A stretch of DNA of 64,000 bases, taken from the NCBI GenBank assembly GCA_030737835.1, contig CM060850.1, positions 30,793,716 to 30,857,715 of the forward strand, given 5' to 3'. The notes below the pieces were generated by a model. The model saw only the letters and a program-made list of their open reading frames with translations, was not told where the DNA came from and ran no database searches. This document shows positions 4,821-47,870 of the stretch, in pieces. Origin of the DNA: Acorus gramineus (taxonomy: Eukaryota > Streptophyta > Magnoliopsida > Acorales > Acoraceae). The position numbers and the translations under genes are program-made. Each line of letters opens with the position of its first letter. The stretch's first letter is position 1.

Positions 4821-7800
4821 ATGGCGTCCACATTAGAGTTCACAGTCCGGCGGAAGGAGGCGGTGCTGGTCCGTCCGGCCGGGCCGACCCCGCACGAGTT
4901 GAAGAAGCTGTCGGACCTTGATGACCAGATGGGTCTCCGGTTCCAGGTACCGGTGGTCCAGTTCTTCCAAAACAACCCGTCCATGGCGGGGAAGGACCCG
5001 GCGAAGGTCATAAAGGATGCCGTGGCTAAGGCCCTCGTCTATTACTACCCGTTTGCGGGGCGCATCAGGGAGGAGGAGGGGGGGATGAAACTCAGCGTGG
5101 ACTGCACCGGAGAGGGAATTCTCTTCGTCGAGGCCGACGCCGACGTCACGCTAGACCAGTTCGGGGACGAGATATGGCCGCCGTTCAAGTGCTTGGGTGA
5201 CATCCTTCATGATGTTCCTGGGACCGGGGACGTCGTCAACTGCCCCTTGTTGTTGATTCAGGTATTTAAGTTCAATCATTAATTCCATATGACTTTCATG
5301 ACTCACGCATGATTAGAATTGTCACATACCTCGTATGTTAATTAATCATAACTTGTTGATTCAAATTTGACAAGAAATTAATAACAAGATCCGGTGCTGC
5401 TTGGATCTTTATCTCCTGATTGAAAAATGACCCAATTTTTTCATGATTGTCGTCACATGCTTTAGTATCCTTTACCTTTGTTATTTTTATTTTTATAATA
5501 ACGGTTATAGGCCAATTTTAATGGCTGATCTGATCATCGAATCACATCTTCACAATTTTTTTTTTTTAAATCGATAAATATTTTTCTTTTCTTGTTAAAT
5601 CTCCCCGAATCAACAGACAGATAACAAAATTTAAACTTAGGTCTCCTTATTCAAAAGTGATATTTCTACAATCCTACTAAAAAGAAGTTCAATGATCATG
5701 AGCTTCACAGGTTATATCATTAAAAGCCCGGTTGATAACACGATCAGGGTTCAAAAGTGTTACAAAATGGGTTTCAGAAAACAAACTTAATTAAAAAGTT
5801 ATTTATAGTTTTTAATGTAAAAAAGTTGTTTTTAAAAAATATAAAAAATGAGTTTTTAAAAAATTAAAATCTATTTAAATCGTTTCATTCAATATTTTTT
5901 TTTCAAATGTGTTTTACAACGCTACCTAAAATTAAAGTTAAAACTAAAACTGATTTCTTTAACCAGGGGTGTAAAAAAAAAAAAAACTTCAATTAGGTGA
6001 ACCAGATCAGGTCAGCGCTCATGTAGTCACACCACGAAAATTGGTATGAGACTAATAATTTAAAAAAAAAATTAATAATAATAATAATACGATGAAGGAC
6101 CAAAAATGAAAATTATCTTAAGAATTATGTACACATGCTTTTATACATGTCCAGATCAATCCATAATGATTTCACGTAATAAATGCAAGTGTGGCAGAGA
6201 CAAGAATCGGATCTTTGATCCGACAAGATGGAATGACAAAAAAATACATGTGATTTCTTTGGTATTTTGTCGTTTATACGGATGTGCCATATATGTTGAA
6301 TAGCTGTCACATAAGGTTCAAAGTCAAAGGCTTAGTTTTTCTTTTTGGTAATTCTAGGTCGTTGCCATGATAATTAATAAAATTTTCTATCCTCAAAAAT
6401 AATTAAATAGAGTGATTATAAGATATTATTTTCCGAGGTCTGTAAAAAAAAATGGTATGTAAATAATAAACAGGATCAGTGCCAGTTTTTTTTTTTTTTT
6501 TTTGTTAATTCTAGATTGTGCCAAGATGATTAACAAAATTTACAATCCAAAAAAATAATTAAATAAAGCGATTATATGATATTATTTAATGAGCTCTATT
6601 TAAAAAGAATAAGATAGAGATAAATTTATTTTCTTGATTCTAAATTCTAATGTAGAGAGAAAGGGAAAAGATTTTTTTGGTTTTTTCTGGCTTAGTAACG
6701 AGATATACATATGATTGTATTTTTTATAAGCGTAAAAATAAATGTGTTTTACGGCGCCGTTTCATATTTTGTCGTTTACGTAGAGGGGTCATGCTGAATA
6801 GGTGTCGCATAGAGTTCTAAGTCAAAGGCTCAATGCCACACTTTGTTTCTTTTCGTTAATTCTTGGTCGTACCAGGATAACCAAATTTTCAATCGAGAAA
6901 AATGTTTAAAATATGTGATTATTCTTTTTTCTGAGTTCCGTTTAAGAAAAAAAGCAGGGTAAGATAGAGATAAAATTCAATAAAGAGAGAGAATAAGATC
7001 AGCATTTTCTTATTTTCATACTTTTCAAACTCAAATATAATTAGCGTATTCTTCATTTTTTTTTTTTTATGTAAAACGATAGTTTTGTTAAAAATTTAAA
7101 TATATAATTCAATGGATGAATTGTATATCATATACAGCATGAAAAATAATATTCCATTCATGACTGTTGGTGCAGGTGACCCGACTGACATGCGGAGGGT
7201 TCATAGTGGCCTACCGCCACAACCACACGATGGCGGACGCAGCGGGCCTGGTCCAGTTCCTCAAAGCGGTCTCCGAGTTCGCCTGCGGCGCATCCCGACC
7301 CACCCTGCAGCCCGTATGGGCGCGTGAGTTCCTCCTCGCGCGCAACCCCCCGCGCGTGACGTGCGAGCTCCGCGAGTACGACGACGTCCCCGATACGAAG
7401 AACACGCTCGTCCCCCACCCCGACATGGTGGACCGCGGCTTCTTCTTCGGGCCGAGACAGATGGCCCGACTACGGGCCCAGCTCCCGCCCCACCTCCGCA
7501 AGGCCGCTTCCTCGTTCGAGATCATCACCGCCGTCCTCTGGAGAGGACGCACCGCCTCGCTCAACATGGAACCGGAGGACACCGTTCGGATCCTCTGCAT
7601 CGTCAACGGACGGTCCAAGATCAAACCCCCGCTCCCCTCGGGATTCTACGGGAACGCGTTCGTGCTGCCCGCGGCGGTGTCCACGGCCAGAGACCTTTGC
7701 GCGGGCCAGCTTGGGTACGCGGTGGAGCTGGTGAAGCGGGCCAAGGGACGGGTGACGGACGAGTACATAAGATCGACAGCTGATTTGTTGGTGGTGAGGG

Positions 7801-8105
7801 GGAAGCCGCACGCGACGGCTGTGGGGACGTTCTTGGTGTCGGACGTGACCCACGCTGGGTTCAGGGAGGTGGACTTCGGGTGGGGGGAGGCAGTGTACGG
7901 TGGACCCGCGAAGGGGGGTGTTGGGCCCGTTCCGGGATTCGCAACGTTTTATATGCCGTACAGGAACAGAGAGGGGGAGAATGGGGTGGTGGTGCCCATG
8001 TGTTTGCCACGGCCCGCCATGGAGAGGTTCTCGGCCGAGTTTGACGAGCTGACTCGGGAGCAGCCCAAGGCGCAGCAGCCCACTCATATTTTATCTGCAC
8101 TTTAA
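4821..8105 (+). CDS. BAHD acyltransferase, benzyl-alcohol O-benzoyltransferase-like (copy A)
   Basis: Two exons, 4821-5261 and 7176-8105, join in phase 0 (CAG/GTATTT donor, TTGGTGCAG/GTGACC acceptor) to give 456 residues, the normal BAHD length. The catalytic HTMAD motif (HxxxD) is at residues 164-168 and the structural DFGWG motif at 380-384. Both are intact, as is the family's single intron just before the HxxxD region. The N-terminal TPHEL..LSDLDDQ.GLRFQ region (about 24-42) is typical of the alcohol acyltransferase/benzoyl-CoA:benzyl alcohol O-benzoyltransferase clade. Such enzymes transfer an acyl group from acyl-CoA to an alcohol in the cytosol, making volatile or protective esters; the actual substrates cannot be read from the sequence. 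The exons are very GC-rich and the intron is AT-rich. The start is the first ATG after the TATA box and aligns exactly with copy B. Confidence 0.92.
5262..7175 (+). other. Intron of BAHD copy A, with hAT-like MITE and tandem repeats
   Basis: The intron is 1914 bp and AT-rich. Around 5725-5940 it contains a MITE-like segment (GGTTGATAACACGATCAG) related to sequences near 23770 and 51270. From about 6340 to 6960 it holds two or three degenerate units built on AATTCTAGGTCGT, AATAATTAAATAAAGTGATT and a GAGCTCTGTT block. The same minisatellite is longer in copy B. Confidence 0.6.
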
Positions 8106-10411: not shown

Positions 10412-12444
10412 TAGAACTTTTTAACTCTTTTGATACACATATGCCACCTATGTATCAAAACATGCATGTATCGGTAAAATTCTCATCAACACACACACTG
10501 ATATAAAAGTTTCTCATTTGTTGAAATGGGAGTCATCAACTAAATGTCTGACTCCGGCCGGGTGAATTCATCTAGTGGAGAAAAGGACCATTATGTGATT
10601 TCAAACTGTTAAAAAATGGCGCTTGTGAAAGGGCCCCATTCATGTCATTTCAATGCGTTACAGAAGGGAAACGTGAGGGACATTCTTCCAGTACGTACTT
10701 TTGACATTAGCAAAAATTATATATATTTATTTAACAAAATATATACATACACAACGAGAAATTTAGGATTTGGTAACAATTTTTTTTGCTACAATTTTAT
10801 AAACTTAAGGTATGTATATGCTATAAGTACGACTTAAAAAAAATCGTAGCATTATTTTGAAAGCTTTTAAAATATTTTTATGTGTGAAAGAACAGATGCT
10901 ACAAAAATTGTTTAATTGAGAACGGAATCTATGGGATTGTGGTGATAAGTATGCCTGCGGCTTTTTTAGAAACCGCAATAATGTGATTGGAAATCACAAC
11001 AATTAATTTAATTAATGCTGGTGAATTTTTTAAAAACTGTAGCAGTAAAGATCATTTATGGCCATGACTCTTCTTTCTCCATTGTAGTTTTTTCACATTT
11101 TCCTTAATCACTGAAAAATGGCTTCTCATCCGAAAAATTACTCATCTCCACAAAACTTGGCAAGCCTTCTTTGAACTCCTCCATTGATCATGTCGTTCCC
11201 CATCTTTTCCACATTCCTCCGTGAAGACTGATCAGGCCCACTCAAATCACATTAATTTTGAATTCATAGAACTAGTAAAAATTCTTCTATATTTTTCTTT
11301 GTGAATTTTTTTATAGTCTATTGTTTGGATTGCCTTTTTTTTTAGATTCAAGATTATGGAATAGCAATTATAGTTTTGATCATACCACTTGGAATCATTT
11401 TTTTTTTTTTTTTGCATTTTTTCAGAATACACGAGGACAAAGGATCAAAACCCGAGCTTCGATCAAATCAGTTTTATGAGAGGATACATTGCATGGAGTA
11501 GCAGAATACTCAATAGATGAATGCAACAAATGCAAGATTTTCTATCGGACAAAAGGAGGAGAAGATGCATGAAAAGATGCAAGAGATACAAGAACTAAAA
11601 ACAATTTTTTTAGAATTTATCAAAATTTTAAGTTTTAGATAGTAATCTTTAACTGTTATTTTGTAATTTTTTTTGTAAATTCATATGTATTTTAGTTTTA
11701 GACTTTTATGTTGACTAGTAGGTGTACATGTGCGTTGCACATGAATTATATTACTGAAATATAATGGCTGAATAATAATTACGATAATCAGTTGACTCTA
11801 AAGTAAGAACATATTTTATAAAAATTCAATATTAACTTAACATAAATATTGACAATTTAAAATAAATATTTGACTGCCTTTGTTAAATCATACAACTACA
11901 TCACACTTGAGCCACCTGAGGAAGATTGCATTGATACATGTCAGATATATGAATTAAAAGGACCAATAAGATAAATTTAATTAAGCTAATTATTCTATAA
12001 AAGCGACAAATAATGCTCTGATGAAGATGTAGCATAATAGGTATATGGCAACAGAGGATATTTTTTACATGAATTCTCATTTGAATAAAACAAAAAATCA
12101 CCTCTCAAATGATACATCAAATCAAAGTTTCAAAAAACAAACCACTTCCATTACAAACAACAATGTGATATCCATGTTAAACCCTAACTAAGTACCAAAT
12201 TTTGACAAATTCAAAGAAAATGACAAAAAAGAATTGCATAAACATGAAACTCAATTACCAAATAATTGAAAAATTCAAACAATTTTAAGTAACTAAAGTA
12301 ACAACAAAAGACTTTTTAAGAAGAAAAAGGACCAACAAACAATATGGAAATCCATTGAGGTTCCTAACACCGCAGCAAACCATTAGCATACCCATCCATA
12401 AAAGATAAGCATTTAGGATATTAACAAAGATTGTTTTAGAAAAC

Positions 12445-12695
12445 TTTGAAAACCTTCTCCTTTGTAGGCCCACTGGTGCCCCCTTCTCATATCGTGTTCC
12501 TTGTCTTCAGTGTAACCTCTTTTGATAATTGAATATCATCGTTATCTCAAAGGATGTTTTCTCTTGATCAAATTTGTAACCCTTTGCTATAAGTTCCAGC
12601 AAGCTCTTTATATTGAGGTAGTCTTCTGACTGGAATATGAAAGCCAATGTTGAAAAAAAAATCAGCACAAAGGAAGCGAAGGGAAAAGAATTCAA
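12445..12695 (-). pseudogene. Captured SKP1-like fragment in the Helitron
   Basis: The minus-strand reading contains TLAFIFQSEDYLNIKSLLEL, matching the SKP1 segment TLFDLILAANYLNIKSLLDL residue for residue in spacing. It continues with EKTSFEITMIFN against the family's GKTPEEIRKTFN. After a change of frame near 12510 it reads RRGHQWAYKGEG, corresponding to the conserved SKP1 C-terminus RRENQWAFE. SKP1 is the adaptor between cullin-1 and F-box proteins in SCF ubiquitin ligases. Only the C-terminal part is present and the frame is broken, so this is a captured fossil of a host gene. The AG at 12639-12640 on the minus strand is not needed as a splice site, since homology runs through it. Confidence 0.75.
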
Positions 12696-15039
12696 TTTGA
12701 AATAAATATCTATTTCTGATACAATACAAGGATTTTAACAACACCAAAGGGAAAATAGATGTCAAAGACAATCTGTCATTTCAAGTGTATAACAAATAAT
12801 GGGGACAAAGACAGGATGTTTGTATTTTAAACAAAATCACGAAAGAACACACACACAACATATAAATATTGTTTTGGTTTTTTCTTAATAAAATGTCTTT
12901 GAGCTATCTTAGCGTTCAGGCATGATAATGTATTAAAAGTCGATATAACTATCTTTAAACTCATACACATAATAAGTCTAACTAAACTGACAGCTAAAAA
13001 TTACAAAGACTCTAATGAAAATCCAACAATGTTCAACACATGAAAAATACAGATGGCCTAAACTTCTCCTAGCTAAATTTTTAAATCAAGAGAAGCTGAA
13101 TAATTTACCAAAGTCCTGCTATCTTTTTTTTTTTTTTTTGAAATGCTGGATTAACGAAAACTAATTAAAATATGAAAGCAAATATCTAATTTTTTAAAAT
13201 AATAATAAATAATGGTGTTACATAAATTAACCAACATCCATCTATTATTCTATTATATCAACTCCATCAAAATTCAAGAAAAGGGATCAACCAACTTACA
13301 GAAAGGGAAGATGATGGAAATACTAATGACAAATCAAACCGTCATTTCATTCATCTTACATTCATCTTACATTACAATACCAATGACACTCGTGTATATC
13401 TTTAGTATACATTGAATCTTTGACTCGTCAAGAGGATTAGTGTGCATGGACACTATCTTGTAAATTTGAAACATTTTTGTAATCAAGCTACATACACTAT
13501 TTGAAGTTTTGTGAGCGACAACATTATGGTAAAATGTATATACATCAGATTTTGGTGTTATTAGACCGATTAAATTTTTTTTCCTTTTCCTCTCACTTTT
13601 TTATGTTTAATACAATTAGAGTATTATAATGCACCTTGACTATAAAATTTCTGGTTATTAAGTGATGGATGGAACCATAGGAAAGAGTGGAGTGCTATCC
13701 CAAAAAATATCTAGCGCAATCTAAAATTATACAAAATCTTTGTTGCATATGTATCCGAATTTATTTTTAATCTTCTGATTGTTTTGTGATCTTTTAGTTC
13801 TTTCTTGAAATATTTTTTATTTTCTTATGAACATGTTTTTGCAAGATCTTAAATTTTTTTTCTCAGGATATATAACTCTAGAATTTTGATGGTGGAAACT
13901 CTGCTAGATGTGTTCTTTTATATTTAAAGTGACAAACTATTGGAGGGTAGGACATAATGACGTGCACTTAAGAAGTTTTAGAGAAAAGATAACTATGGAT
14001 GTAACTATGAAATCAGAACAATGGTTGATGTTTATGTTTTATTAAATTTCATATTTTATTATGTATTAGTTGATCAAATTAATTTTATTATTAATGTTAT
14101 GATTAAATAAGACAAAACTAAATAAGACAATACTAAAGGGAAATTCCTTTGGTATTTTCATTTATCAATTCTAAGATAGAGCAGCAGATGTAATATCCAA
14201 TGAGCAAAGGGATACCTTTGCCTTGTACCTCTCATCCTATGTCATAAATGTGAACCAAAGCCCTCTTCCTGGTCATGTTACAACATAAGTGATATCCTGG
14301 AAGGAACAAAAAGAGCAAACACACTTAGAAAGTGACTCTGGCCAAAATCAGTATTTTTATAATGTTATTAAACTAATTAAGTGATTTGTACTTATTGCGT
14401 GATAATCCAGTCGAGATTCACATCTTATAATATTAAAAAATGTGCAACAAATTGACAAGATGTCCAAGATGAAAAATATATCATTGTCCCTCAACAGGGT
14501 AAAATACACAGTTTCCTTGCCGAAAAATTAAGTCCATAAAACATTTTAAAAAAAATGATTTCAGTGTTGACGGACATAAATTCTTGGCATTCAATCAGAA
14601 AAATATGGATGATAGAAAAATATTACTGTAATTTTTATGTAAGGCCCACAATCGAAGTGAAAGTTAACTATCCTATATTCGGAGTCAACATTCACTAAAA
14701 CAATGAATCCTCATTCTATCAGACGTGTCCCTTAATTTAGAGCAAAATACACATCACCTAGAAAATGTTGAATATGTTAAAGACCCTCTTCCCGACCACA
14801 AAATTCTTGACCAAGTACAGAGAATCCATCATATTATAATGAGTAATATATAGAATTTGTGGGGTGTCATGTAACATTGTTCACATTTCGAGTAAAGCAT
14901 GCAGTTTGCCTTTTCCCATTAATTTAATGACCACCTTTTTGGGATCAATCATCCGTGTCAAGAGTCACATACTAATTCTTTGTACCACACTTTTTTTTTA
15001 ATGACATCCAATGCAATACACCGCAGATTGATCATGAGC

Positions 15040-16150
15040 GTAACATCTGATTAAGCAAGTCTGATGATTTCACTTCTTAGCTTTCGTGAAGCCAATATCT
15101 CCATAATCTGACTGTAGCAATAGAAAAGCACAGTAATGTTGAGGATGTAAATGTTGTTGTTAATACCATAAGATATATCATGTAGTCACACTTTGTTTCT
15201 TAATGAAAGTGCTAGTGCCAATAGTCTATCTTATTTTAAATAAAAACATAGGATACATCAAATAATTCATTTCCTCCAAAATAAATATTAGATCAGAACA
15301 ACTATTTTTATGGTTGTTTTAATCCTAAATCAGGGCTCCTATTGTAATTTATAATAATTAAACTGGTACATAAACTCTGCACTTGCTCCAACAACAAATA
15401 CCATTAAGCAACAAACTGGTAGTATTCTAAAAAGTTATTATAAACTCAAAATTTATCCAACTATATTTAGTTTTCTAAGAAAAAGAAGGCTGTAAAGACA
15501 ATAATCAATGCTATTTAACCAATTTCTTCATTTGCTAGAGTGAAAGTCCAATCAATTCATCAACCTCCAACTATATTTAGTTTTCTAGGAAAAAGAAGGC
15601 TGTAAAGACAAGAATGAATGCCATATAACCAATTCCTTAATTTTTTAGAGTGAAGTCTAAACATTCATCTACCCAATTTGTAAGCATATATTACTAATTT
15701 GATATAAATCATGATTGCAAATACACAAAGCAAATTAATTCAAAATTCAATTTGAAGACCAAACCAACCGTCTCAACTCTCAATGGCTGTTTTGAGAAAA
15801 AGAGGGATTGCATTAGACTCCCCCAAAATTTGATAAAAATTTGATTAAAGAAAAAAGGAAATCTTATGATCTTTCAAACTATATTTAGCCATTTTTTAAG
15901 TGGGATTGCAAAGTCGAAGCACCAAAGACAGCACCAAGAGCCAACCAAAAAAAAAAAAAAAGACAGCACCAAGAACTTCCATTTGTAGACTGAAATAATA
16001 TTATAGTACTGATATGGGTGATACTCATACCCAGGATAGTGTCGAATGTATTAGATTAGTGATTGAATGCTATGTACATTTATTCGACAACATATAGAAG
16101 AACATCAACTTCATCTTCTAGTTCATCAGCCTGGGAAACAAAAAATGAAG
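15040..16150 (-). other. Unidentified exon-like pieces in the Helitron
   Basis: Two short minus-strand segments look like terminal exons. One follows a CTACAG acceptor near 15111 and reads SDYGDIGFTKAKK then stop. The other follows TTTCCCAG near 16131 and reads ADELEDEVDVLLYVVE then stop. Around 16120-16250 a segment of about 66 bp including the acceptor is tandemly repeated. Near 15457-15660 about 110 bp (CTATATTTAGTTTTCTARGA) is also duplicated. I do not recognise the proteins. Confidence 0.35.
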
Positions 16151-16753
16151 TAAGAATAAGTCTAAACATTCTACTAAACATGATGTGAAGAGTAAGACAC
16201 ATCTGCCTGAGAAACACAAAGTGGAGTAAGAATAAGTGTAAGCATCATTATTCTACTGGGACATCTTGTACTTTGGGGATTGAACCTATATTGTATCTGC
16301 TATTCGATGCATTTTGCCTGTTCAAAAATACTACAGTAAGAATATGTTCTATAAACTCGTTGGGTTCAGGAAGACCTTTAAATGCTTCTCTTATAAAATT
16401 TCATATCAGGTTCAGAATGGATATTTATGCTATTTTAGTGTTTTGATGGTCAGCTTTTCTTCTTATTATCTGCATGAACCTGCAAGAATTTAGAAGATTT
16501 TTTTATCGGTACATGTACATTGTTACTGCTACTGGGTGTATTATTAGTTTTGTGAATTATGGAGGCAAATTGATAATAGGTAAATCCATTTTCAAATTAC
16601 ACAGAGCAATAAAGCGAAGTGGAAGCATGTCAGAAAACTTAATCACAAACGCACTCAAAAACTATTTATGTTATTTCGAGCTGCTTTATTCATTTATTCA
16701 AAAAATAAACAAAAAATTGATATAGTGTTGCTCAAATTACCAGTTTAAGGACT

Positions 16754-17075
16754 TCCAAGATCCTCACCAACCACCTGAAAAGCATGCAAACCATAGGAGC
16801 ACATAGGTAAGTGAGTACGATAGGCCTCAGCATAAAAAAAATGTATGTGAAAAATGTACAATTTTTATCATCATTCTAAAAATATGAATTCCAAAAAAAA
16901 AGAGCACTGCAAGGCATATATACAATGTATTAGATTAAATTGTGATATATTCATGGTTGAGGAAATCTAGAAGTTCAATCTCAAAATAAAGTTCGTCCTG
17001 ACACGGGAATCCCTCAGGAGCTGTAACTGGCCAGTGAACTTCTCTATAATGTAGTTTGGGCTTCATTTTGAACTT
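16754..17075 (-). pseudogene. Captured FKBP fragment, PASTICCINO1-like
   Basis: The segment 17075-16959 on the minus strand reads FKMKPKLHYREVHWPVTAPE and then GFPCQDELYFEIELLDFL. This resembles the end of the first FKBP domain of plant PASTICCINO1, which has FKMKPE.HYGEDDCPVS followed by FPKDDELHFEIELLDF. Downstream, after an intron-like gap and a TTTTCAG acceptor, 16773-16754 reads VVGEDLG, matching the next stretch of that protein. PAS1 is an FKBP-TPR protein tied to very-long-chain fatty acid synthesis and cell division control. Only these pieces are present, so the copy cannot be functional. Confidence 0.6.
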
Positions 17076-17785
17076 AAAGAAATAGGGAAGCCAAAACAGA
17101 TTTAGCAACAAACGGATAATTTGCTAAACAGTTCAAGATGTGGCAGAAAACCCCCAAGTATTCAAATGATCACACCATGGCACAAGTCAATTAAATAAAA
17201 TGCACCCCGAATATCCATTTCTACGAAAGCGATCACAGTGATTGGAAAAGAAACTGAGAAAAAAGACAATGAAAAAAATCATGTTCTAGGAAAATGAATG
17301 ATTGGCTAAATAAGACAAATATGCATATTTAAAAATAAAATGCAAAAGCAATGTGACATCAATATAAACATTATTATGGGAGCATGAGAATAGCATCATG
17401 ATAAATTTTCCATCCTCTATTCATGCAATAGCAAAAAAATTTAGAAAGGAAAAAAATAAGAATAAAGCAATTCAATGCATGATCTATAGCATTATCTCTT
17501 GAACATATAAAAATACAAAGTCACAACGAACCAATCAAATGTCTTTATCAGTTAGTGAACGCATTGGTTAACAAAAAAAAAAAATATTTTTACAACAAGA
17601 CACTGGGGATGGGAATTCCATGTTTCATTTCTGATTAAAAAATCTAATCAGAAATATTGATTATCCTCATAAGGTTCAGACTAATGTACTAAATTCAAAA
17701 AAACATATTCATGTTGATAATGAAGAAAGCTGCACTGCATTTTTTTTTATGAGAGTATCATTCTGCAGTGGATGACATTCAATGT

Positions 17786-18424
17786 TCAGAATGAAAAGGC
17801 AGATGGCCAAGAAGCTTTTCAGACATAATTGTTCCAAGAGATCACTCATAAAATACATAGTAGAAACAAAACTCATAAATAGACTTAAGAACTAACCAAT
17901 CACACTCCATTCCAAATCCTTTCTTCAGCAGGACTTCTGTAGTAATATAATCCAGTGTATCAACCGGTGAATAGACCTGAATGCGGAGATAAATATCATA
18001 ATAATTAACAAATTGCTACCATGGTCTTCTATATCTGAACAGATAGACAAATCATCAGAAAATACAGTGGACATCAGGAAATCATATCATGAGGGTAGGG
18101 GATCATAAAATTAAAAACCCAATTCCATAATATGAAAATTTGACATGTGTAATAAAATGTCTGCAACAGACATGCATATCACTGAACAACAACATTACCA
18201 ACAACTTAACGTACGATACTGAAAATGGAACATAATAATTGGAGAAGACGGGAAATTAACTCTCATATGTCCGCTCTTTTTGCCAGTGAAGCAGCTGCTC
18301 TTTCTATGTATGCCTATAAGCACGGGAATCATTTACACTTTGAGATCTTTTCCAATCTCATAGTCAATCTAACCAAAACTGGGGAAACCATTGCAGTCTA
18401 AAGGCTTACATAACCAAAAATCTG
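17786..18424 (-). pseudogene. Captured NDR-type AGC kinase fragment
   Basis: Four collinear pieces read on the minus strand in the order of plant NDR kinases. SDFWLCKPLDCNGFPS (18424 downward) matches the magnesium-binding SDFGLCKPLDCS region, with the DFG glycine replaced by W. KEQLLHWQKERTY (about 18312-18258) matches the NDR insert QEQLLHWQKNRR. LDYITTEVLLKKGFGMECDW (17978-17897) matches [36 protein letters not shown] (17843-17786) matches SLGAIMYEMLVGYPPF. Intron-like gaps separate them and in-frame stops occur, so this is a fossil. NDR kinases are AGC kinases of cell-morphology and growth control. Confidence 0.8.
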
Positions 18425-18894
18425 AAAGCTTCGTATGACCATATAAATTTATTTGTAACATTTATTTCTCCCTGTTTGAATGAGACTATGAAAGATAAAA
18501 AGTAAAGAGCAAAAGCCAAAAGATGAAACCAATTTAAAAATTACCACATCAACTTGTGGATCAAGCTAGAAATAATGTCGGATTCTTTAGAACATGAACG
18601 CAAGACAAACACATTGCATACCAAATAACAAAAACGGGTGAAAAGGCATTCTAAATCTTGCAAGACAGATACATCCATCAATCTAAAAACACACTAAAAT
18701 ATAAGAACACACTAACATTCAATAAAATACAAAGATCAAAACCCACCTCAAACATACTCACATGATTATCATATGATTCAAAACCCACCTCAAACACATT
18801 GCTGTTTTTTTTTTCAATATGGTGGAAGCAGAACCAAAAAAGGGACAAAAAGAGAAAGGAATCATAGGAAATCGAATTTCATTAATTCCATAAA

Positions 18895-19541
18895 AAACAA
18901 CAAAAGTAGTAACCCAACTAAACAAAAGCCACCTCCAAACTAAACATGAAAATCTTTAAAAAAAAAATTCAACTGAAATACATACAATCTATGTTTTTAG
19001 GTTTCCCAAAAAAAATAAAAGAAAAAAAACTAACAAATGATCGACATTAAATAACATTCTAGACAGATGGAAGGGACAAAACTTCACCTGAATTGGAGAG
19101 GTGGAGAAGCGACCGGAGTTGAGGTTTCTCCTCGCGGCTGTGGTTGCATAAGATCCCCCACCGGCGAAGCCAAGCGGCGATCATGGTTGTCGGCGGTCTG
19201 ATGAATCTTGACGCAGCTAAACAACAAAAGTAGTAACCCAACTAAACAAAAGCCACCTCCAAACTAAACATGAAAATCTTTAAAAAAAAAATTCAACTGA
19301 AATACATACAATCTATGTTTTTAGGTTTCCCAAAAAAAATAAAAGAAAAAAAACTAACAAATGATCGACATTAAATAACATTCTAGACAGATGGAAGGGA
19401 CAAAACTTCACCTGAATTGGAGAGGTGGAGAAGCGACCGGAGTTGAGGTTTCTCCTCGCGGCTGTGGTCGCATAAGATCCCCCACCGGCGAAGCGAAGCG
19501 GCGATCATGGTTGTCGGCGGTCCGATGAATCTTGACGCAGC
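18895..19541. repeat. 324-bp direct tandem duplication
   Basis: Unit 1 (18895-19218) and unit 2 (19219-19541) are adjacent and nearly identical; I see about three base differences (for example GTGGTTGC/GTGGTCGC). The unit includes AT-rich intron-like sequence and a GC-rich segment (GGAGAAGCGACCGGAGTTGA). It lies near the 5' end of the Helitron, so it arose within the element recently. Confidence 0.85.
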
Positions 19542-19644
19542 GGATGAATTTCTGGTTATCCCACTTGTGATCCAACATATAAAATTTGTACAAGATTTTC
19601 AGTTCTTGGCATGAAGGGCTGTCGACCAACACCATCGGAGGTGG

Positions 19645-19647
<3 letters not shown>

Positions 19648-19699
<52 letters not shown>
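19648..19699. repeat. (GA)n microsatellite
   Basis: About 26 GA repeats lie in the 5' part of the Helitron, next to the 324-bp duplication. Confidence 0.95.
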
Positions 19700-19704
<5 letters not shown>

Positions 19705-20702
19705 GGAAGAGGGTTGAAATATCAATCAAAAGAAGAGATGTTCCAAAAGTATAGATGAAGAGAAACGTAACAGAACTACAGCAGAAGATGAAGCGGTTTG
19801 GGAGACGAAAAGACATGAGGATAAATGAAAGAGTAAAAATGTAAAAATGATAAACTGTCAAAAGGACAGGGATGTATTTTCAGAAATTCAAAAGGGTAAA
19901 TCTGTCAATAGAAAGTTTTTCAGGATTGGTGCTTTTATAAGTAGTATAGATATATAAAATTTCAATTTTCCTGTACCACATCACCATTTAGCAATAAAAA
20001 TTTATATTGTGTTTTATGATTTTAAATAAATGCCATATAAGAAAAGAAAAAAACATTTTGTGCACCTTTTAGTTAATGCATGTTTTTTTAAATGAAAAAA
20101 AGTAAAAAAGCAAATATTTAATAGCAATTATGGGTATACAATTAGCTATGATTTCAAAAATATAGCTATACCCCCCTGAATCGTCGGAAGAATGAAAGCA
20201 AAAGCGGAAAGTCAAGCTATTTTTTAGCGGCGGTTTTTCAACCCGTCGCTAAATTGACCGCAGCAGTTAGTTCAACGACCGTCGCTAAAACATAAAAGAC
20301 TTTTTTTACCAAGCGGGTTGTCAAACGTCGGTATAAATATAGCTGCGGTTTTATTTGTTAGCGACGGTTTAGAACCGTAGCTGTAGATCACTTTTCTACC
20401 TTGAATGCATATTTACTTATGTTCTCTTTTACCTTAATTAACAATAGTTTATAGGAAAGAGAAGGCTGCATAAATGACTCATCATCCATCAAATAAATCA
20501 CTGAAAAAACTGGTGAAAATGCTCTCAAGTTGGCATCTACGTGAAGTTAAAATCTTCTGCAGAGTCTCCTGGCTTGAAGTATGAAATAAGAAGAATAAAA
20601 CATAACACGCAGACGTGTACTACAGAAATAACAGATAATGCAATCACAATTTCTTCAAGTATAATGCAGTGTAAAATATCTATCATGCATTATGTAGCAT
20701 AC

Positions 20703-23041: not shown

Positions 23042-26000
23042 ATGGCGTCCACATTAGAGTTCACAGTCCGGCGGAAGGAGGCGGTGCTGGTCCGTCCGGC
23101 CGGGCCGACCCCGCACGAGTTGAAGAAGCTGTCGGACCTTGATGACCAGATGGGTCTCCGGTTCCAGGTACCGGCGGTCCATTTCTTCCGAAACAACCCG
23201 TCCATGGCGGGGAAGGACCCGGCGAAGGTCATAAAGGATGCCGTGGCTAAGGCCCTCGTCTATTACTACCCGTTTGCGGGGCGCGTCAGGGAGGAGGAGA
23301 GGGGGATGAAACTCAGCGTGGACTGCACCGGAGAGGGAATTCTGTTCGTCGAGGCTGACGCCGACGTCACACTAGACCAGTTCGGGGACGAAATATGGCC
23401 GCCGTTCAAGTGCTTGGGTGACATCCTTCATGATGTTCCCGGGACCGGGGACGTCGTCAACTGCCCCTTGTTCTTGATTCAGGTATTTAAGTATAATCAT
23501 TCCATGTGACTTTCATGACTCACGCATGGTTGAAATTGTCACGTATCTCCTATGTTAATTAATTATAACTTATTTCAAAACTCACTCATTCAAATTTGAT
23601 AAGAAATTAAGGACAGTTTAAAAACACGTTTGAAAAATAAATTTTAAATAAAATGATTTAAATAAACTTTGAGTCTTATAAAGTGTATTTTCTGTGTTTT
23701 TTAAAAAGTAACATTATATTTTTGTACTAAAAGCTGTAAATAATTTTTTAATTAAGTTAACTTTTTAAAACCCGTTCGGTAACAAGTTTGAGCCTTCTAT
23801 TTAATTAAAAGCAGAATCATGTCCCATCATGTTACCAAACATGTCCTAAAAAGTTATTTACAATTTTTAGTGTAAAAAATTATTTTTTAAAAAGTATAAA
23901 AATAAGCTTTCTAATAATCAAAATCTATTTAAATCACTTTATTCGAAACTTTATTTTTCAAATGTATTTTAAAACGCTACCTAAAACTAAAACGGATTTG
24001 TTTAACATGGGATGGGATGTAAAAAAAAATAACTTCTATTTGGTCAACCAGATCAGGTCAATGCTCATAAAGTCAACCCACTAAAATTGGTTTGAGACTA
24101 ATAATTTTAAAAATAACAATAATAATTGTTAAATGGGTTTTGTTAAGGAGTGCCCTCAGAGCACTGGTTAACCCACATTAATTGCTCATTTTTTAGACAA
24201 CTTAACAAATTAATTATAATATAGTTAAAAAAAATAAAAGATTTTTTAAAATACCAACAACACCCCTAATAAATTCACCACATTTTTTCTTCCCTCCCAC
24301 ACCCAATTTTTCCCTCCAATGTTTAAAAATAAAAATAATGTTACAAGCATAAATAAGATATTTTCAAGAAAAATATCCTATTTATGTAAAAAAAAAAAAA
24401 AAAAAAGTATGTATACCAAACAATTGAACAATATTTTTTTTTGGTATATAAAGTCAACTTTTTATATATTATTTATGAGTAAATAGGGTATGAGAGGGAA
24501 GAAGAAAAAAAGATAATGAATTTATTAAGATTGTTGTTGGTATTTTTAAAAAAATTTCATTTTTTTGTACTGATATCATATTTAATTTATTGAATTGCTT
24601 AAAAAGTAAACAATTAATGTGGGTTAACCAGTGCCATGAGGACACTCGTTAACAAAACCCTTGTTAAATTATATGTGTTATGTCATAGTGGCTGATTGTA
24701 ATAATAATAATAATAATAATAATAAGATAAAGGATCAAAAATGGAAATTATCTTAACAATTATGTACACATGTTTTTGTACATGTATCGATCCATAATGA
24801 TTTCACGAAATAAATGCATGCGTGGCAGAAATAGGAATTGGATATTTGATCCGACCAGATGGAATGACAAAAAAATATATGTGATTTCTTTGGTATTTTG
24901 TATTTTATACGGATGGGCCTATGTTGAATAGCTGTCACATAAGGTTCAAAGTCAAAGGCTCAATTTTTCTTTTTGTTAATTCTAGGTCGTTTACAAGATA
25001 ATTAACAAATTTTTCGATCCAGATAAATAATTAAATAAAGTAATTATAAGATTTTTTTTTTCGAGCTCTGTTACAAAAAATGGTATGTAAATAACAAACA
25101 TGATCAGTACCAGTTTTTTTTTTTTAATTCTAGATCATGCCGAGATAATTAACAAAATTTACATTCTAGAAAAATAATTAAATAAAGTGATTATAAGATA
25201 TTATTTTCCGAGCTCTGTTAAAAAAAAATGGTCTGTGAATAACAAACATGATCAGTACCAGTTTTTTTTTATTATTATTCTAGATCATGCCAAGATAACT
25301 AACAAAATTTACAATCCAGAAAAATAACTAAATAAAGTGATTATACAATATTATTTCATGAACTCTATTAAAAAAAAATAAGCACCTCCTGCTCTTCCTT
25401 CAAAAGCTAAAAAGAAAAGATTTATGAAAATATTTGAAAGATTGTATTTATGGGACGTAAGACATTTTTATTATATTTATGCATTTTCATTTGTGTTTAT
25501 TATATTTAAACATTTTTATTTGTATTTAAAAACAGGAGTTAAATTGATTGTAATGGAACTTATGTTTTATTTTCTGAAAGTTATTTTATGTTCAAGCGGG
25601 AATTTTTATACAGATGAGAACCAACAATTTGTTCAAAAAAAAAAAAGATTTACATTAGAAACGGTATATATATAATCTGTCTCTAGTGTAAATCCACAAT
25701 AAGGGGGTCAAAACACCGGAGACGGATTATATAATCCGTCTCCAATGTAAATCCCCACTGATGTGGTCGAAACACTGGAGTACAAAACTTCACTATTTTT
25801 GTAAATATTCAATTTTTAAAAACTAAAAGTGCTAATCACCCTTAACAAAATTTACGATCCAAAAAAATAATTAAATAAAGTGATTATACGATATTATTTC
25901 ATGATCTCTATTAAAACAAATAATAAGATAGAGGTAAAATTTATTTTCTTGATTCTAAATAGAGAAAAAAAAAAAGGATTTTTTGTTATTGACTTTATAT

Positions 26001-27454
26001 ACAGAGCAGTATTTTAGACCATTAAAAATAATAGAGTTTTACGGGGCCGTTACATATTTTGTCGTTTACGTAGAGGGGTCACGTTGAATAGCTGTCACAT
26101 AGAGTTTTTAGTCAAAGGCTCAATGCCACCCATTGTTTCTTTTTGTTAATTCTCAGTGCCACCGAATTTTCAATCCAGAAAAATGTTTAAAAAATGTGAT
26201 TATACGATATTGTTATTCCTGAGGTCCGTTTAAGAAAAAAAAAAAAAAAAAAAAAGGATAAAAATAGAGATAAAATTCAATAAAAAGAGAAAATAAAGTC
26301 AGCATTTTTTTATTTTTTTAATCTCAAATATAATTAGCATATTTTTCATTTTTTCATATACCATTTTTGTAATTATATAAAAAAATAAAAATCAAAATAT
26401 ATAATTCAATAAATAAATTTTATATTAAAAATATATAATGAAATATATAAATTATAAATAAAATTATGAAATAGACTGGATGTAACCGAGCCTGATAATA
26501 TTCCCTTTATGACGGTTGGTGCAGGTGACCCGACTGGCATGCGGAGGGTTCATAGTGGCCTACCGCCACAACCACACGATGGCAGACGCAACGGGCGTGG
26601 TCCAGTTCCTCAAAGCGGTGTCCGAGTTCGCCCGTGGCGCGTCCCGACCGTCCCAGCAGCCCGTGTGGGCGCGTGAGCTCCTCCTCGCGCGCAACCCCCC
26701 GCGCGTGACGTGCGAGCTCCGCGAGTACGACGACGTCCCCGACACGAAGAACACGCTCGTCCCCCACCCCGACATGGTGGACCGCGGCTTCTTCTTCGGG
26801 CCGAGACAGATGGCCCGATTACGGGCCCAGCTCCCGCCCCACCTCCGCAAGGCCGCTTCCTCGTTCGAGATCATCACCGCCGTCCTCTGGAGGGGACGCA
26901 CCGCCTCGCTCAAGGTGGACCCGGAGGACACCGTTCGGATCCTCTGCATCGTCAACGGACGGTCCAAGATCAAACCCCCGCTCCCCTCGGGATTCTACGG
27001 GAACGCGTTCGTGCTGCCCGCGGCGGTGTCCACGGCCAGAGACCTTTGCGCGGGCCAGCTTGGGTACGCGGTGGAGCTGGTGAAGCGGGCCAAGGGACGG
27101 GTGACGGACGAGTACATAAGATCGACAGCTGATTTGTTGGTGGTGAGGGGGAAGCCGCACGCGACGGCTGTGGGGACGTTCTTGGTGTCGGACGTGACCC
27201 ACGCTGGGTTCAGGGAGGTGGACTTCGGGTGGGGGGAGGCAGTGTACGGTGGACCCGCGAAGGGGGGTGTTGGGCCCGTTCCGGGATTCGCGACGTTTTA
27301 TATGCCGTACAGGAACAGAGAGGGGGAGAATGGGGTGGTGGTGCCCATGTGTTTGCCACGGCCCGCCATGGAGAGGTTCTCGGCCGAGTTTGATGAGCTG
27401 ACTCGGGAGCAGCCCAAGGCGCAGCAGCCCACTCATATTTTATCTGCACTTTAA
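23042..27454 (+). CDS. BAHD acyltransferase, benzyl-alcohol O-benzoyltransferase-like (copy B)
   Basis: Exons 23042-23482 and 26525-27454 join in phase 0 to give 456 residues. HTMAD is at 164-168 and DFGWG at 380-384, both intact. Compared with copy A there are 16 amino-acid differences: V45A, Q47H, Q50R, I82V, G87R, L144F, T152A, A170T, L172V, C184R, T190S, L191Q, F199L, N277K, M278V and E279D. Several lie next to the HxxxD motif and in the 184-199 region, which could affect substrate choice; that is inference. From residue 280 to the end the two proteins are identical. The intron is 3042 bp against 1914 bp in copy A, owing to insertions and repeat expansion. No break is visible and the gene looks functional. 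Confidence 0.92.
24135..24660. mobile_element. Mutator-type MITE in the intron of BAHD copy B
   Basis: The 526-bp element has inverted ends of about 60 bp (GGGTTTTGTTAAGGAGTGCC on the left; reversed right end GGGTTTTGTTAACGAGTGTCC) and an exact 9-bp target duplication TTGTTAAAT (24126-24134, 24661-24669). It is absent from the intron of copy A. It carries no coding potential. Confidence 0.88.
24960..25380 (+). repeat. Intronic minisatellite, expanded in copy B
   Basis: Three consecutive units of roughly 130-145 bp share TAATTCTAGATCATGCCRAGATAA, AAATAATTAAATAAAGTGATTATA and a GAGCTCTGTTAAAAAAAATGG-like block. Partial units follow at 25845-25920 and near 26130-26240. Copy A has about two full units at 6346-6600. 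Confidence 0.65.
25640..25850. mobile_element. Foldback-element fragment (same family as 3631-4313)
   Basis: Short hairpin repeats (ACCGGAGACGGATTATATAA, TCCGTCTCCAATGT) are followed by AAAAGTGCTAATCACCC, which matches the terminal repeat of the 3.6-kb element. The left end is not clear, so the copy is probably truncated or nested. Confidence 0.55.
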
Positions 27455-45205: not shown

Positions 45206-46075
45206 TGGGGACGGACAGTTTGTATCCCTGAGAATACACCATTTGGAGAGTTGTTGTCCTGGATATTTTTGATCTTAGTAGCTTGGAATGTTGGATGAGC
45301 TCTTTGAGGTAAGTCTAAGGCTAGGTTTGGTATCTTCCTTGCCTGGTGGGCAAGATATCATTGTTTAATATGCTTTTTGGAGGACAAAAGTAAACACAAG
45401 TGGTGTGGAAGAAACTTTTCAAAGCTTAGAATCCTAGCAACTTCACTCTTGAGTAAAGATAAATTCTAAACTTGCATTTATCAATTCTTTCTTTTTCTGG
45501 GATAATGCTGGGTATCTAAACAAACTCTTTATAGTACGAAGTTGAACATATAGCTTTTCAGTCAGCTATCTGTTTTAGTTTTGCCTTGATGCTACTTTTT
45601 CCCCTTACTTTCATGTGCTCAGCTGAGCTGATTGACATCCACAGAAACCATCCACAGAAACTCTGCCATTCATTTCTGGCTTGGGAGGCATTGTCATATC
45701 ATGAATTCTGTGTTTGGACTGCAATTCACTTATTGGTTGTGCCTATTATTATATAATAAACATCATAAATACGGAACCTTCTACTAACATCAGAAGACTA
45801 TCAATGGCATTAACTTGATGGTACTACTGGGTTTGATTAACGATATTTTTTGTATTATGATTCTTTTTGGTACTTTTATTCCCAATGTGTCTCCTTTGGC
45901 CAGGCTTCAGTTGAATTTCAATGCAGAGACAATTTCAGTATTATTTCCAACTAATGTGCTAGTGCAAAATCTTCTGTAAACATTGTTTGTTCCACTATTT
46001 TTGTGCCTTCCCTAGTAACATGGGTCTGTAATTTGATGACAGCCAGTATGACATGAGGAGAGACTTGTGAACCAA

Positions 46076-47870
46076 ATGGATCCCAAAGCTTTCATCAAAG
46101 TATCAATAGGATCTCTGGGTCTTAGAATTCCCGTTGCAGCTTCAAAGGGTGGAAGAGCCGCTGTTCATGCTTCCTCTTCTTCATGCTTGTGTGAGATCCG
46201 TCTCAGAGGTTTCCCTGTTCAGACAGCATCAGTTCCACTTATATCTTCTCCTGAAGCTGTTCCTGACCCTCACAGCAATGCATCATGTTTCTACCTTGAA
46301 GAATCTGATGTGAAAACATTGTTGGCTCCAGGCTGTTTTCAAGGTCCCCAATCACACCTGGAAATCTCCATTTATACGGGTAGACAGGGGTCTCACTGTG
46401 GCGTTAGCAGCAGGAAACAGCAGATCGGGATGTTCAGGTTGGAGGTAGGTCCGGAATGGAAAGAAGGAAAGGCAGTGATGCTTCACAATGGTTGGGTTGC
46501 GTTAAGCAAGAACAGGCAGGAGAGTGGGAAACCAGGTCCTGAACTGCATCTGAGGGTGAAGTTGGATCCAGATCCGAGATATGTCTTTCAGTTCGAGGAC
46601 GAAACGGCATTGAGTCCTCAGATTGTTCAACTTCAAGGAAGCATTAAACAGCCTATCTTCACTTGCAAATTCAGCCGTGACAGAAGGTAAGCATTATATT
46701 TTGCTACACTCTTTCTCCCTTCTCCTTCTCTTTTCTTTTCTTGGTTTATTTCGTAAACTTTTTTATTTTAAATTGAGAGGGAAAGAATATTTGAAAACCA
46801 TGTGATTTGGGATTGCTTTATGAAAAATAAAATTGTTGACGGCCAGCAGCGCATCCATTCTGACGGGACATTGGAAAATATGGCACTTTATTTTCTGATC
46901 AAGAATAAGGGAGGAAAAATGCATATCCTTTGTGTATGATGCTTCCTTCACGGGATGTGGAAAATTTCAATTGCAAATGTTGGACTGTAATTAGCATGAC
47001 CAATCAAAGTTATAGCCAAGTTTCTGATTACCCCTTGGATTTATGGAACTGATTGACAAAATGGATTCCTCATATGATGATAAACTTGTATGTTTCTTTA
47101 TGATTACATGATCACTATAGCACATCAAAACCAGATCCCTATTTTTCATCGCATATTAATTTCAGTCATGGATTTCAGATACAGTTAAGTGATCTCAGGA
47201 TTAACTTTTAATGTAAAACTACAGGCCATCTCAGTTAGACCAGAGAGTTAACTACTGGTCAATCCCCAATGGTGGCAGTGACCAGGACGCCGAAAGACGT
47301 GAGAGGAAGGGTTGGAAGGCTATTATTCATGACCTATCAGGCTCTGCCGTCGCAGCTGCATTCATGGCAACCCCGTTTGTGCCCTCCTCGGGCTGTGATC
47401 TAGTTGCCCGCTCTAACCCTGGGGCGTGGCTCATCGCTCGACCAGATTCTTTAGGGCCTGAGAGTTGGCAGCCATGGGGGCGCCTTGAGGCATGGAGGGA
47501 GCGTGGAAACCGAGACTCCATCTGCTGTCGCCTATTCCTCCAATCCGAGGGCCACGAGTCTGGGATCCTTGTGTCAGAGATCCTTATCAGTGCAGATAAG
47601 GGTGGGGAGTTCTATATCGACATGGAGAGACAGAGGGTTGTTAATGGAGAGATGGTGTCTATGGGGCCTGTCGGAGGGGGGTTTGTGATGAGTTGCAGGG
47701 TGCAGGGGGAGGGGAAGAGCAGTAAGCCTATGGTGCAGCTGGCAATGAGGCATGTCACTTGCGTGGAGGATGCTGCGATTTTCATGGCACTTGCTGCTGC
47801 TGTTGATCTTAGTATTGAAGCCTGCCGGCCATTCAGGAGGAAGCCCAAGTGGGGCACCCGCAGTTCTTGA
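46076..47870 (+). CDS. DUF1005 family protein
   Basis: Two coding exons, 46076-46686 and 47225-47870 (donor AGAAG/GTAAGC, acceptor CTACAG), give 418 residues, close to the family's usual length. The N-terminus MDPKAFIKVSIGSLGLRIPV is typical of the family. Other conserved blocks are IYTGRQGSHCGV, LDPDPRYVFQFE, QPIFTCKFS and, in exon 2, GWKAIIHDLSGSAVAAAFMA and TPFVPSSGCDLVARSNPGAWL. The function of the family is unknown; it is plant-specific. The ATG at 46076 was chosen because the family begins MDP; the three codons before it lack another ATG. A possible 3' UTR intron runs from GTTAG/GTATGT (47892) to TTTTTGCAG (48578). Confidence 0.9.

Follow-up and report, generated by a model that had tools for sequence, protein, structure and literature searches.

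Helitrons are transposons without inverted ends. For gene-carrying Helitrons of maize, stepwise capture has been argued, and the multiple 3' termini of some elements were explained by nested Helitrons in which the inner CTAG had changed (Dong et al. 2011, PMC3288121). In Brassica napus, 35.25% of 1793 gene-capturing Helitrons hold two or more fragments (PMC11986588), and in the Helraiser assay loss of the hairpin raised the capture of downstream DNA to at least 36% of events, against about 11.7% (PMC4778049). Among Pack-CACTA and other Pack-TYPE elements, neighbours lose their facing ends and the outer ends then mobilise everything between them (PMC8903248, PMC13317346). The origin of multi-gene Helitrons has usually been inferred from end products. 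Here we analyse a Helitron that carries pieces of an NDR-kinase gene, a PAS1-like FKBP gene, a fourth gene and an SKP1 gene, and that lies in a 64,000-nucleotide stretch of the Acorus gramineus genome (contig CM060850.1, positions 30,793,716 to 30,857,715; hereafter the window). We consider it likely that this element is a composite, formed by the fusion of two gene-carrying Helitrons of the same family, mobilised by read-through, and later deleted in part and spread. A preliminary description, made from the letters of the window, regarded multi-gene capture as known mainly from maize; it is indeed known there, but the restriction is too narrow, since Brassica napus has many such elements (PMC11986588).

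The window element, its ends and its copies

The analysis confirmed a non-autonomous Helitron that lies on the minus strand and whose insertion point falls precisely between an A and a T (Table 1). Its 5' end starts with TCTATACTACTTATAAAAGCACC at window position 19950, and its 3' end runs through the hairpin ATGTGCAACGCACAT and then GTACACCTACTAG to a terminal CTAG. The window copy reads TCTATACTAC...CTAG, in keeping with the 5' TC and 3' CTRR of Helitrons, and its hairpin stops 13 nt short of the 3' end, where Helitron hairpins are expected at about 10-13 nt. The 70-nt stretch at this end (11706-11775) folds with a z of -4.5, a value equalled by one of 200 shuffles. No Rep-helicase was recognised inside the window element.

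To describe the insertion site and the family we searched one genome assembly, and the repeat counts from this search are lower bounds. The window's joined flanks match 29 places, two of which are the window's own flanks; 26 of the 27 others cross the junction, at 69-95% identity, and represent paralogous empty sites. In the five of these that were fetched, the alignment crosses the junction of A and T within an A/T run, which is longer at the site on C11, while the site on C2 has T as its last left base. The target of the window Helitron was therefore one copy of an older repeat (11714/19951), and the limits of the element are exact. Copies and empty sites alike indicate insertion between A and T without target-site duplication, and the ends, hairpin, CTAG and insertion site given in the preliminary description hold, with boundaries now fixed by the empty sites.

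Searches with 110 bases of the 5' end returned at least 43 rows (40 of 190 candidates scored), and searches with 110 bases of the 3' end at least 40 rows (40 of 55 candidates scored). Six pairs of ends, the window's included, had the expected order and spacing, and the elements between them were read whole. At least six full-length copies carry both ends and the same cargo at unrelated sites (the window, C1, C3, C6, C60 and C4b), as is typical of Helitrons, and the six both-end copies are 94.6-98.8% identical to the window across stretches of at least 3 kb. All six end in CTAG; five share an identical 5' start, with a small change in C6. Likewise, A and T directly flank the element at five of the six, and C6 is consistent with this if its 5' start has a 2-bp change.

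The terminus extends well beyond these copies. A 26-base pattern of the 5' terminus, with up to two mismatches allowed, gave 291 genome matches, against none for the reversed control. An earlier 18-base pattern, TCTATACTACNNNNTTTT, had been uninformative (4 matches, against 23 in the control) and was discarded. Among the first 100 listed of the 291 matches, all of them exact, 17 pairs of neighbours lie less than 10 kb apart on the same strand and none on opposite strands, where uniform placement would yield 0.33 pairs; C1:15762754-15767161 and C4:14806605-14813929 are examples.

Two cargo sets carried apart and the joint between them

Searches for NDR/PAS1 (41 rows) and for SKP1 (22 rows) revealed two cargo sets, each of which is seen without the other: element A carries NDR, PAS1 and the fourth gene piece, and element B carries SKP1. 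Beyond the six composites, NDR and PAS1 occur together at C6:23383, C6:23172, C4:27454 and C128:39300, and none of the 22 SKP1 rows lies near these loci. Conversely, the SKP1 region is found at C6:21468, C3:30370, twice on C32 and at C54:3543, with no NDR or PAS1 nearby among the 41 NDR/PAS1 rows; all of these B-only loci except that on C54 have a 3'-end row among the scored candidates. For element A, C6:23383 was read through its own 3' end, which is intact with hairpin and CTAG, and C4:27454 and C128 were read in part; for element B, 9.5 kb were read at C6:21468 and 3.1 kb each at C3 and C32.

PAS1 is also found away from any NDR row, in a complete 5.97-kb Helitron at C2:3264278-3270246 (L022, L077) and at C54:3.803 and C4:24.907 Mb, of which 2.3 and 1.7 kb were read, with shared PAS1 boundaries. 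The presence of PAS1 in members without an NDR row means that left-to-right order need not be time order; we favour acquisition of PAS1 before NDR, although the PAS1-only members may have lost NDR, and RepHel-type elements hold an NDR piece of 304 bp with no PAS1. The preliminary description had proposed a search for family members with different cargo, and such members exist (A-only, B-only and PAS1-only). Its reading of the order as a capture history, from NDR to PAS1 to SKP1, has to be replaced by one in which two elements, one with NDR and PAS1 and the other with SKP1, were probably fused later. The C2 Helitron holds a further piece faintly like an ACT domain (E 0.06, below the cut-off). 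A copy in which e6202 is joined to e7569 (L086; element coordinate e = 19951 - window position) was considered as an SKP1-less B element predating capture and was rejected: SKP1 homology crosses e7569 into the 3' untranslated region, and the copy is therefore more likely a deletion derivative.

The connection between the two sets is preserved in copy C4b (C4:7908371-7918623), in which e5107 and e5118 are separated by 2.65 kb absent from the other five composites. On its left, this additional sequence aligns over 998 bp, at 81% identity, with the right part of A as present at C6:23383. The similarity extends to A's 3' end, which breaks off within the hairpin (TTCATGTGCAAC) with its last 19 bases gone, CTAG included. 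There follow a second 3'-end remnant, without hairpin, then the 5' end of B minus approximately its first 35 bases, at 80-83% identity to the 5' termini of the family, and then B's left part, 98% and 90% identical to C6:21468, which runs into e5118. The e5107/e5118 boundary itself was excluded as the original A-B junction: beyond e5107, the A-only copy at C4:27454 continues with A's right part instead of B. The boundary therefore marks a deletion that came later and took the A-B joint with it.

Trees were inferred from block e1100-1960 of A (9 rows, with 550 bp for C4b and 400 bp for C6:23383) and block e7325-8236 of B (11 rows, with homology from e7568 onward only for C3:7377). Roots were placed at midpoints, and the A-only and B-type rows served as outgroups for ordering the composites. 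The six composites form one clade in both trees, with support of 97/95 in the A block and 100/99 in the B block. In both, C4b branches first, followed by C60 and then by the window, C6, C3 and C1, the early branching of C4b being as expected if the fusion preceded the 2.65-kb deletion. The node that joins C60 to the youngest four received 85/85 (A) and 97/96 (B). Distances are at most 0.04 among the six composites, 0.04-0.10 to A-only and 0.05-0.15 to B-type copies, and among the youngest four they amount to 0.003-0.009 in the tree blocks and 0.010-0.017 in a longer A block. The cargo is 68-84% identical to host loci, far below the identity between copies, which argues that capture is much older than spread. 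Together, these comparisons establish, at the level of sequence, that the cargoes exist apart, that a joint connects them, that a deletion is shared, and that the composites are a single clade that has spread.

A potentially autonomous relative is present at C43:4026600-4036500 (L084), a RepHel Helitron with a 1035-aa open frame matching Helitron_like_N and PIF1. Its 3' end carries the same hairpin as the window element, its 5' end falling outside the stretch read. This element contains a 304-bp NDR piece that is 94-95% identical to the composite copies, against 91% to the A-only C6:23383; the same piece, without PAS1, resides in RepHel-type elements, and L085 (C10) is 96% identical to L084 over 2.5 kb. 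The identities of the NDR piece suggest that it was transferred between non-autonomous and potentially autonomous elements. Separately, the C60 copy is interrupted near e4458 (L069, L070) by 7.2 kb of inserted sequence containing long internal inverted repeats; blocks of the insertion are about 72-89% identical to positions 664-3690 of L084, between the two Helitron_like_N matches of C43.

Cargo pieces and surroundings of the element

The cargo comprises intron-bearing fragments of host genes with source loci elsewhere in the genome (Table 1), as in gene-capturing Helitrons, and the NDR, PAS1, fourth and SKP1 exons all stand in element sense. Source genes were named by best match and may differ from the exact donors. 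The multi-gene cargo named in the preliminary description (NDR, PAS1-like FKBP and SKP1) is supported by DNA homology to loci elsewhere, and for NDR and SKP1 by protein matches as well; alignment to the host loci, introns included, also upholds the intron-like gaps and the orientation it had reported. The comparison with parental loci that it had called for gave identities of 71-79% for NDR, 82-84% for PAS1 and 68% for SKP1, again with introns. The intron sequence in the cargo speaks against retrocopies. The fourth gene exon and the multi-copy piece near the 5' end had been overlooked.

Table 1. Features of the composite Helitron in the window
Feature	Window position	Strand	Element coordinate	Remarks
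Composite non-autonomous Helitron, entire	11715..19950	-		8236 bp; defined by copies and empty sites
5' terminus TCTATACTACTTATAAAAGCACCAATCCTG..., family-wide	19861..19950	-		genome matches to the terminus
Multi-copy piece near 5' end	18682..19551	-	e400-1269	71-75% identical to nine other loci, one of them read
NDR-kinase gene piece	17601..18448	-	e1503-2350	exons and introns
PAS1-like FKBP gene piece	16345..17531	-	e2420-3606	one recognisable coding exon and flanking introns
Fourth host-like stretch	14844..16194	-	e3757-5107	broken exon at about 16050-16136
Scar e5107/e5118	14833..14844	-	e5107/e5118	identical sequence in five composites
SKP1 gene piece	12264..13362	-	e6589-7687	intron, last exon and 3' untranslated region
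3' terminus	11715..11788	-		hairpin 11728-11742; CTAG 11715-11718

The NDR piece is 76-78% identical to a locus on C1 (25.42 Mb) and 71-79% identical to a gene on C2 (10.299 Mb), introns included in both cases; by eye, the C1 locus looks decayed and the C2 gene intact over the 1.9 kb read. In the PDB set, the peptide of its exon has matches to Cbk1 (E 1e-4) and STK38 (E 0.05). The PAS1-like piece aligns with C8:4161500-4166500 at 82-84% identity in blocks of more than 200 bp. The window's PAS1 exon alone had no protein match in Pfam or PDB, and the piece owes its name to DNA homology with this host locus, whose joined exons match FKBP_C (E 1.6e-12). In the window this exon retains an open frame, which is 68% identical to the search query. 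An exon match on C8 (4165843), in part to residues entered by hand, has two stops, and C8:4.163 Mb may be the working PAS1 gene or a pseudogene.

The fourth stretch is 65-78% identical to C1:22037200-22039000 and 77-88% identical to C5:8516900-8519600. A protein search for its exon returned six rows, of which C1:22038503 (the source of the query) and C11:16941755 are strong and stop-free; C4:27457, C128, C5:8518 and C6:23175 are weak (E 0.04-0.6), with a stop in three of the four. The window's own exon is not among the six and was assigned by DNA homology and by its frame. The fourth gene matched no Pfam family and no PDB entry. The SKP1 coding exon, at about 12455-12629, is frameshifted; the piece is 68% identical over 630 bp to C10:14.657 Mb, and translation across the frameshift gives a peptide similar to plant SKP1-like protein 1A (E 1e-5). 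Of the exons that could enter the chimeric transcript considered possible in the preliminary description, that of SKP1 is thus shifted in frame, whereas that of PAS1 is open. A 323-bp tandem duplication (19219-19541 and 18895-19217) is common to the window and copy C3 and absent from the other four composites; copy C1 (L067) has internal tandem duplications of its own within the cargo. None of nine peptides from raw open reading frames of the window matched Pfam, the fragments being too short and too changed. The cargo consists of gene fragments from which probably no functional protein is made.

Two similar genes of the Transferase family (PF02458), presumably of the BAHD type, flank the Helitron in the same orientation at 4821-8102 and 23042-27451, apparently as the result of a local duplication. 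Just beyond the 5' flank, at 20243-20367, CCGTCGCTA, present twice, and TAGCGACGG stand in opposite orientations, possibly as the ends of another small transposon. At 46052-47867, two adjoining open frames match the two halves of DUF1005 (PF06219) and are probably exons of one gene.

Proposed fusion of two loaded Helitrons and its alternatives

In the proposed fusion, A and B would have lain head to tail. Once the terminator hairpin of A was lost, rolling-circle transfer beginning at A's 5' end would have run on to the intact 3' end of B, so that both cargoes moved as one element. The redundant middle would later have been lost through the 2.65-kb deletion across the joint, and the product would have reached six or more sites, among them the older repeat at 11714/19951. 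The RepHel protein may have been supplied by an autonomous relative such as that at C43:4.03 Mb. We infer the adjacency of A and B and the read-through, both of which are made likely by the clustering of 5' termini on the same strand and by the read-through that follows hairpin loss in Helraiser.

Several observations weigh against this account. The joint is kept by C4b alone, and that copy is about 360 bp longer than C4:27454 just after e5107. This one genome yielded no A-B tandem in which all four ends are intact, and none of the A-only or B-only copies read shows two intact ends. The 5' region of C6:23383 is degraded; at C4:27454 and C128 the 5' end is missing its first 30 bases, and the 3' end of C4:27454 was not seen in the stretch fetched. 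At C6:21468 the CTAG has changed to CTATC and no 5' end was seen in 9.5 kb, while the evidence for C6:23172 and C54:3543 consists of search rows. In the A tree, support for joining C60 to the youngest four is modest, and the clustered 5' termini may represent either separate elements or repeats inside one element.

Much the same scar would also be left if distant copies of A and B had been joined by ectopic recombination or break repair, with no tandem read-through. Such a join, which we judge rather unlikely, accords with the deletions on both sides of the joint, with the two different 3'-end remnants, and with the failure to see either an intact A-B tandem or a fully intact separate parent; the 304-bp NDR piece, moreover, has also moved between elements. 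However, the same-strand clusters of 5' termini (17 pairs against 0 among the 100 listed) constitute a natural substrate for fusion, and the remnants follow one another in the order that adjacency predicts, a 3' end and then a 5' end. Less probable still is the successive uptake of NDR, PAS1, the fourth piece and SKP1 by one Helitron through repeated read-through. Although a linear array in one orientation fits such a history, for which a stepwise model has been argued in maize (PMC3288121), SKP1 resides in relatives without NDR or PAS1 rows, and C4b retains remnants of a 3' end and a 5' end between the two halves. Within the A half, where PAS1 is found both with and without NDR, successive capture is plausible. 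Hardly any weight can be given to separate insertion of the pieces, as pseudogenes, into an old Helitron copy at the window locus; this is refuted by the presence of the same pieces in the same order in six copies at unrelated sites, and the introns they retain again count against retrocopies.

The fusion of two loaded elements remains our preferred explanation of the composite. A wider generalisation, in which multi-gene Helitrons of this genome arise mainly by head-to-tail fusion of neighbours, with hairpin deletion as the switch and with cargo ratcheting upward by joining, not by fresh capture, is possible but doubtful.

A literature search by topic, not by organism, found no earlier report of this composite element. 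Multi-gene and multi-terminus Helitrons are already known, and the window element is a well-resolved case with a surviving intermediate. Because relatives of both contributors, an early copy with the joint and trimmed copies coexist in one assembly, the route through read-through and fusion can be checked base by base. The case also cautions against reading cargo order along a Helitron as capture order.

Compared with known systems, the element resembles those of Brassica napus in holding multiple fragments, and differs in that the text available for that species gives genome-wide counts and contains no reconstruction at the level of a joint (PMC11986588). Its proposed fusion is like that of Pack-TYPE elements, in which the facing ends of neighbours are deleted (PMC8903248, PMC13317346); these, however, have terminal inverted repeats and excise, whereas a Helitron needs only the inner terminator to be removed. 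The proposed read-through is akin to that of Helraiser, where a lost or bypassed 3' hairpin leads to transfer as far as a downstream terminator, carrying flanking DNA along; Helraiser is a bat element studied experimentally, whereas here the flank would be a second gene-carrying Helitron and the event is read from fossils (PMC4778049). Like the maize elements, the window Helitron unites several gene fragments in one non-autonomous element that appears to have been built stepwise; unlike them, it seems to consist of two loaded elements set end to end, whose cargoes also occur apart and whose joint is preserved with its inner ends deleted (PMC3288121).

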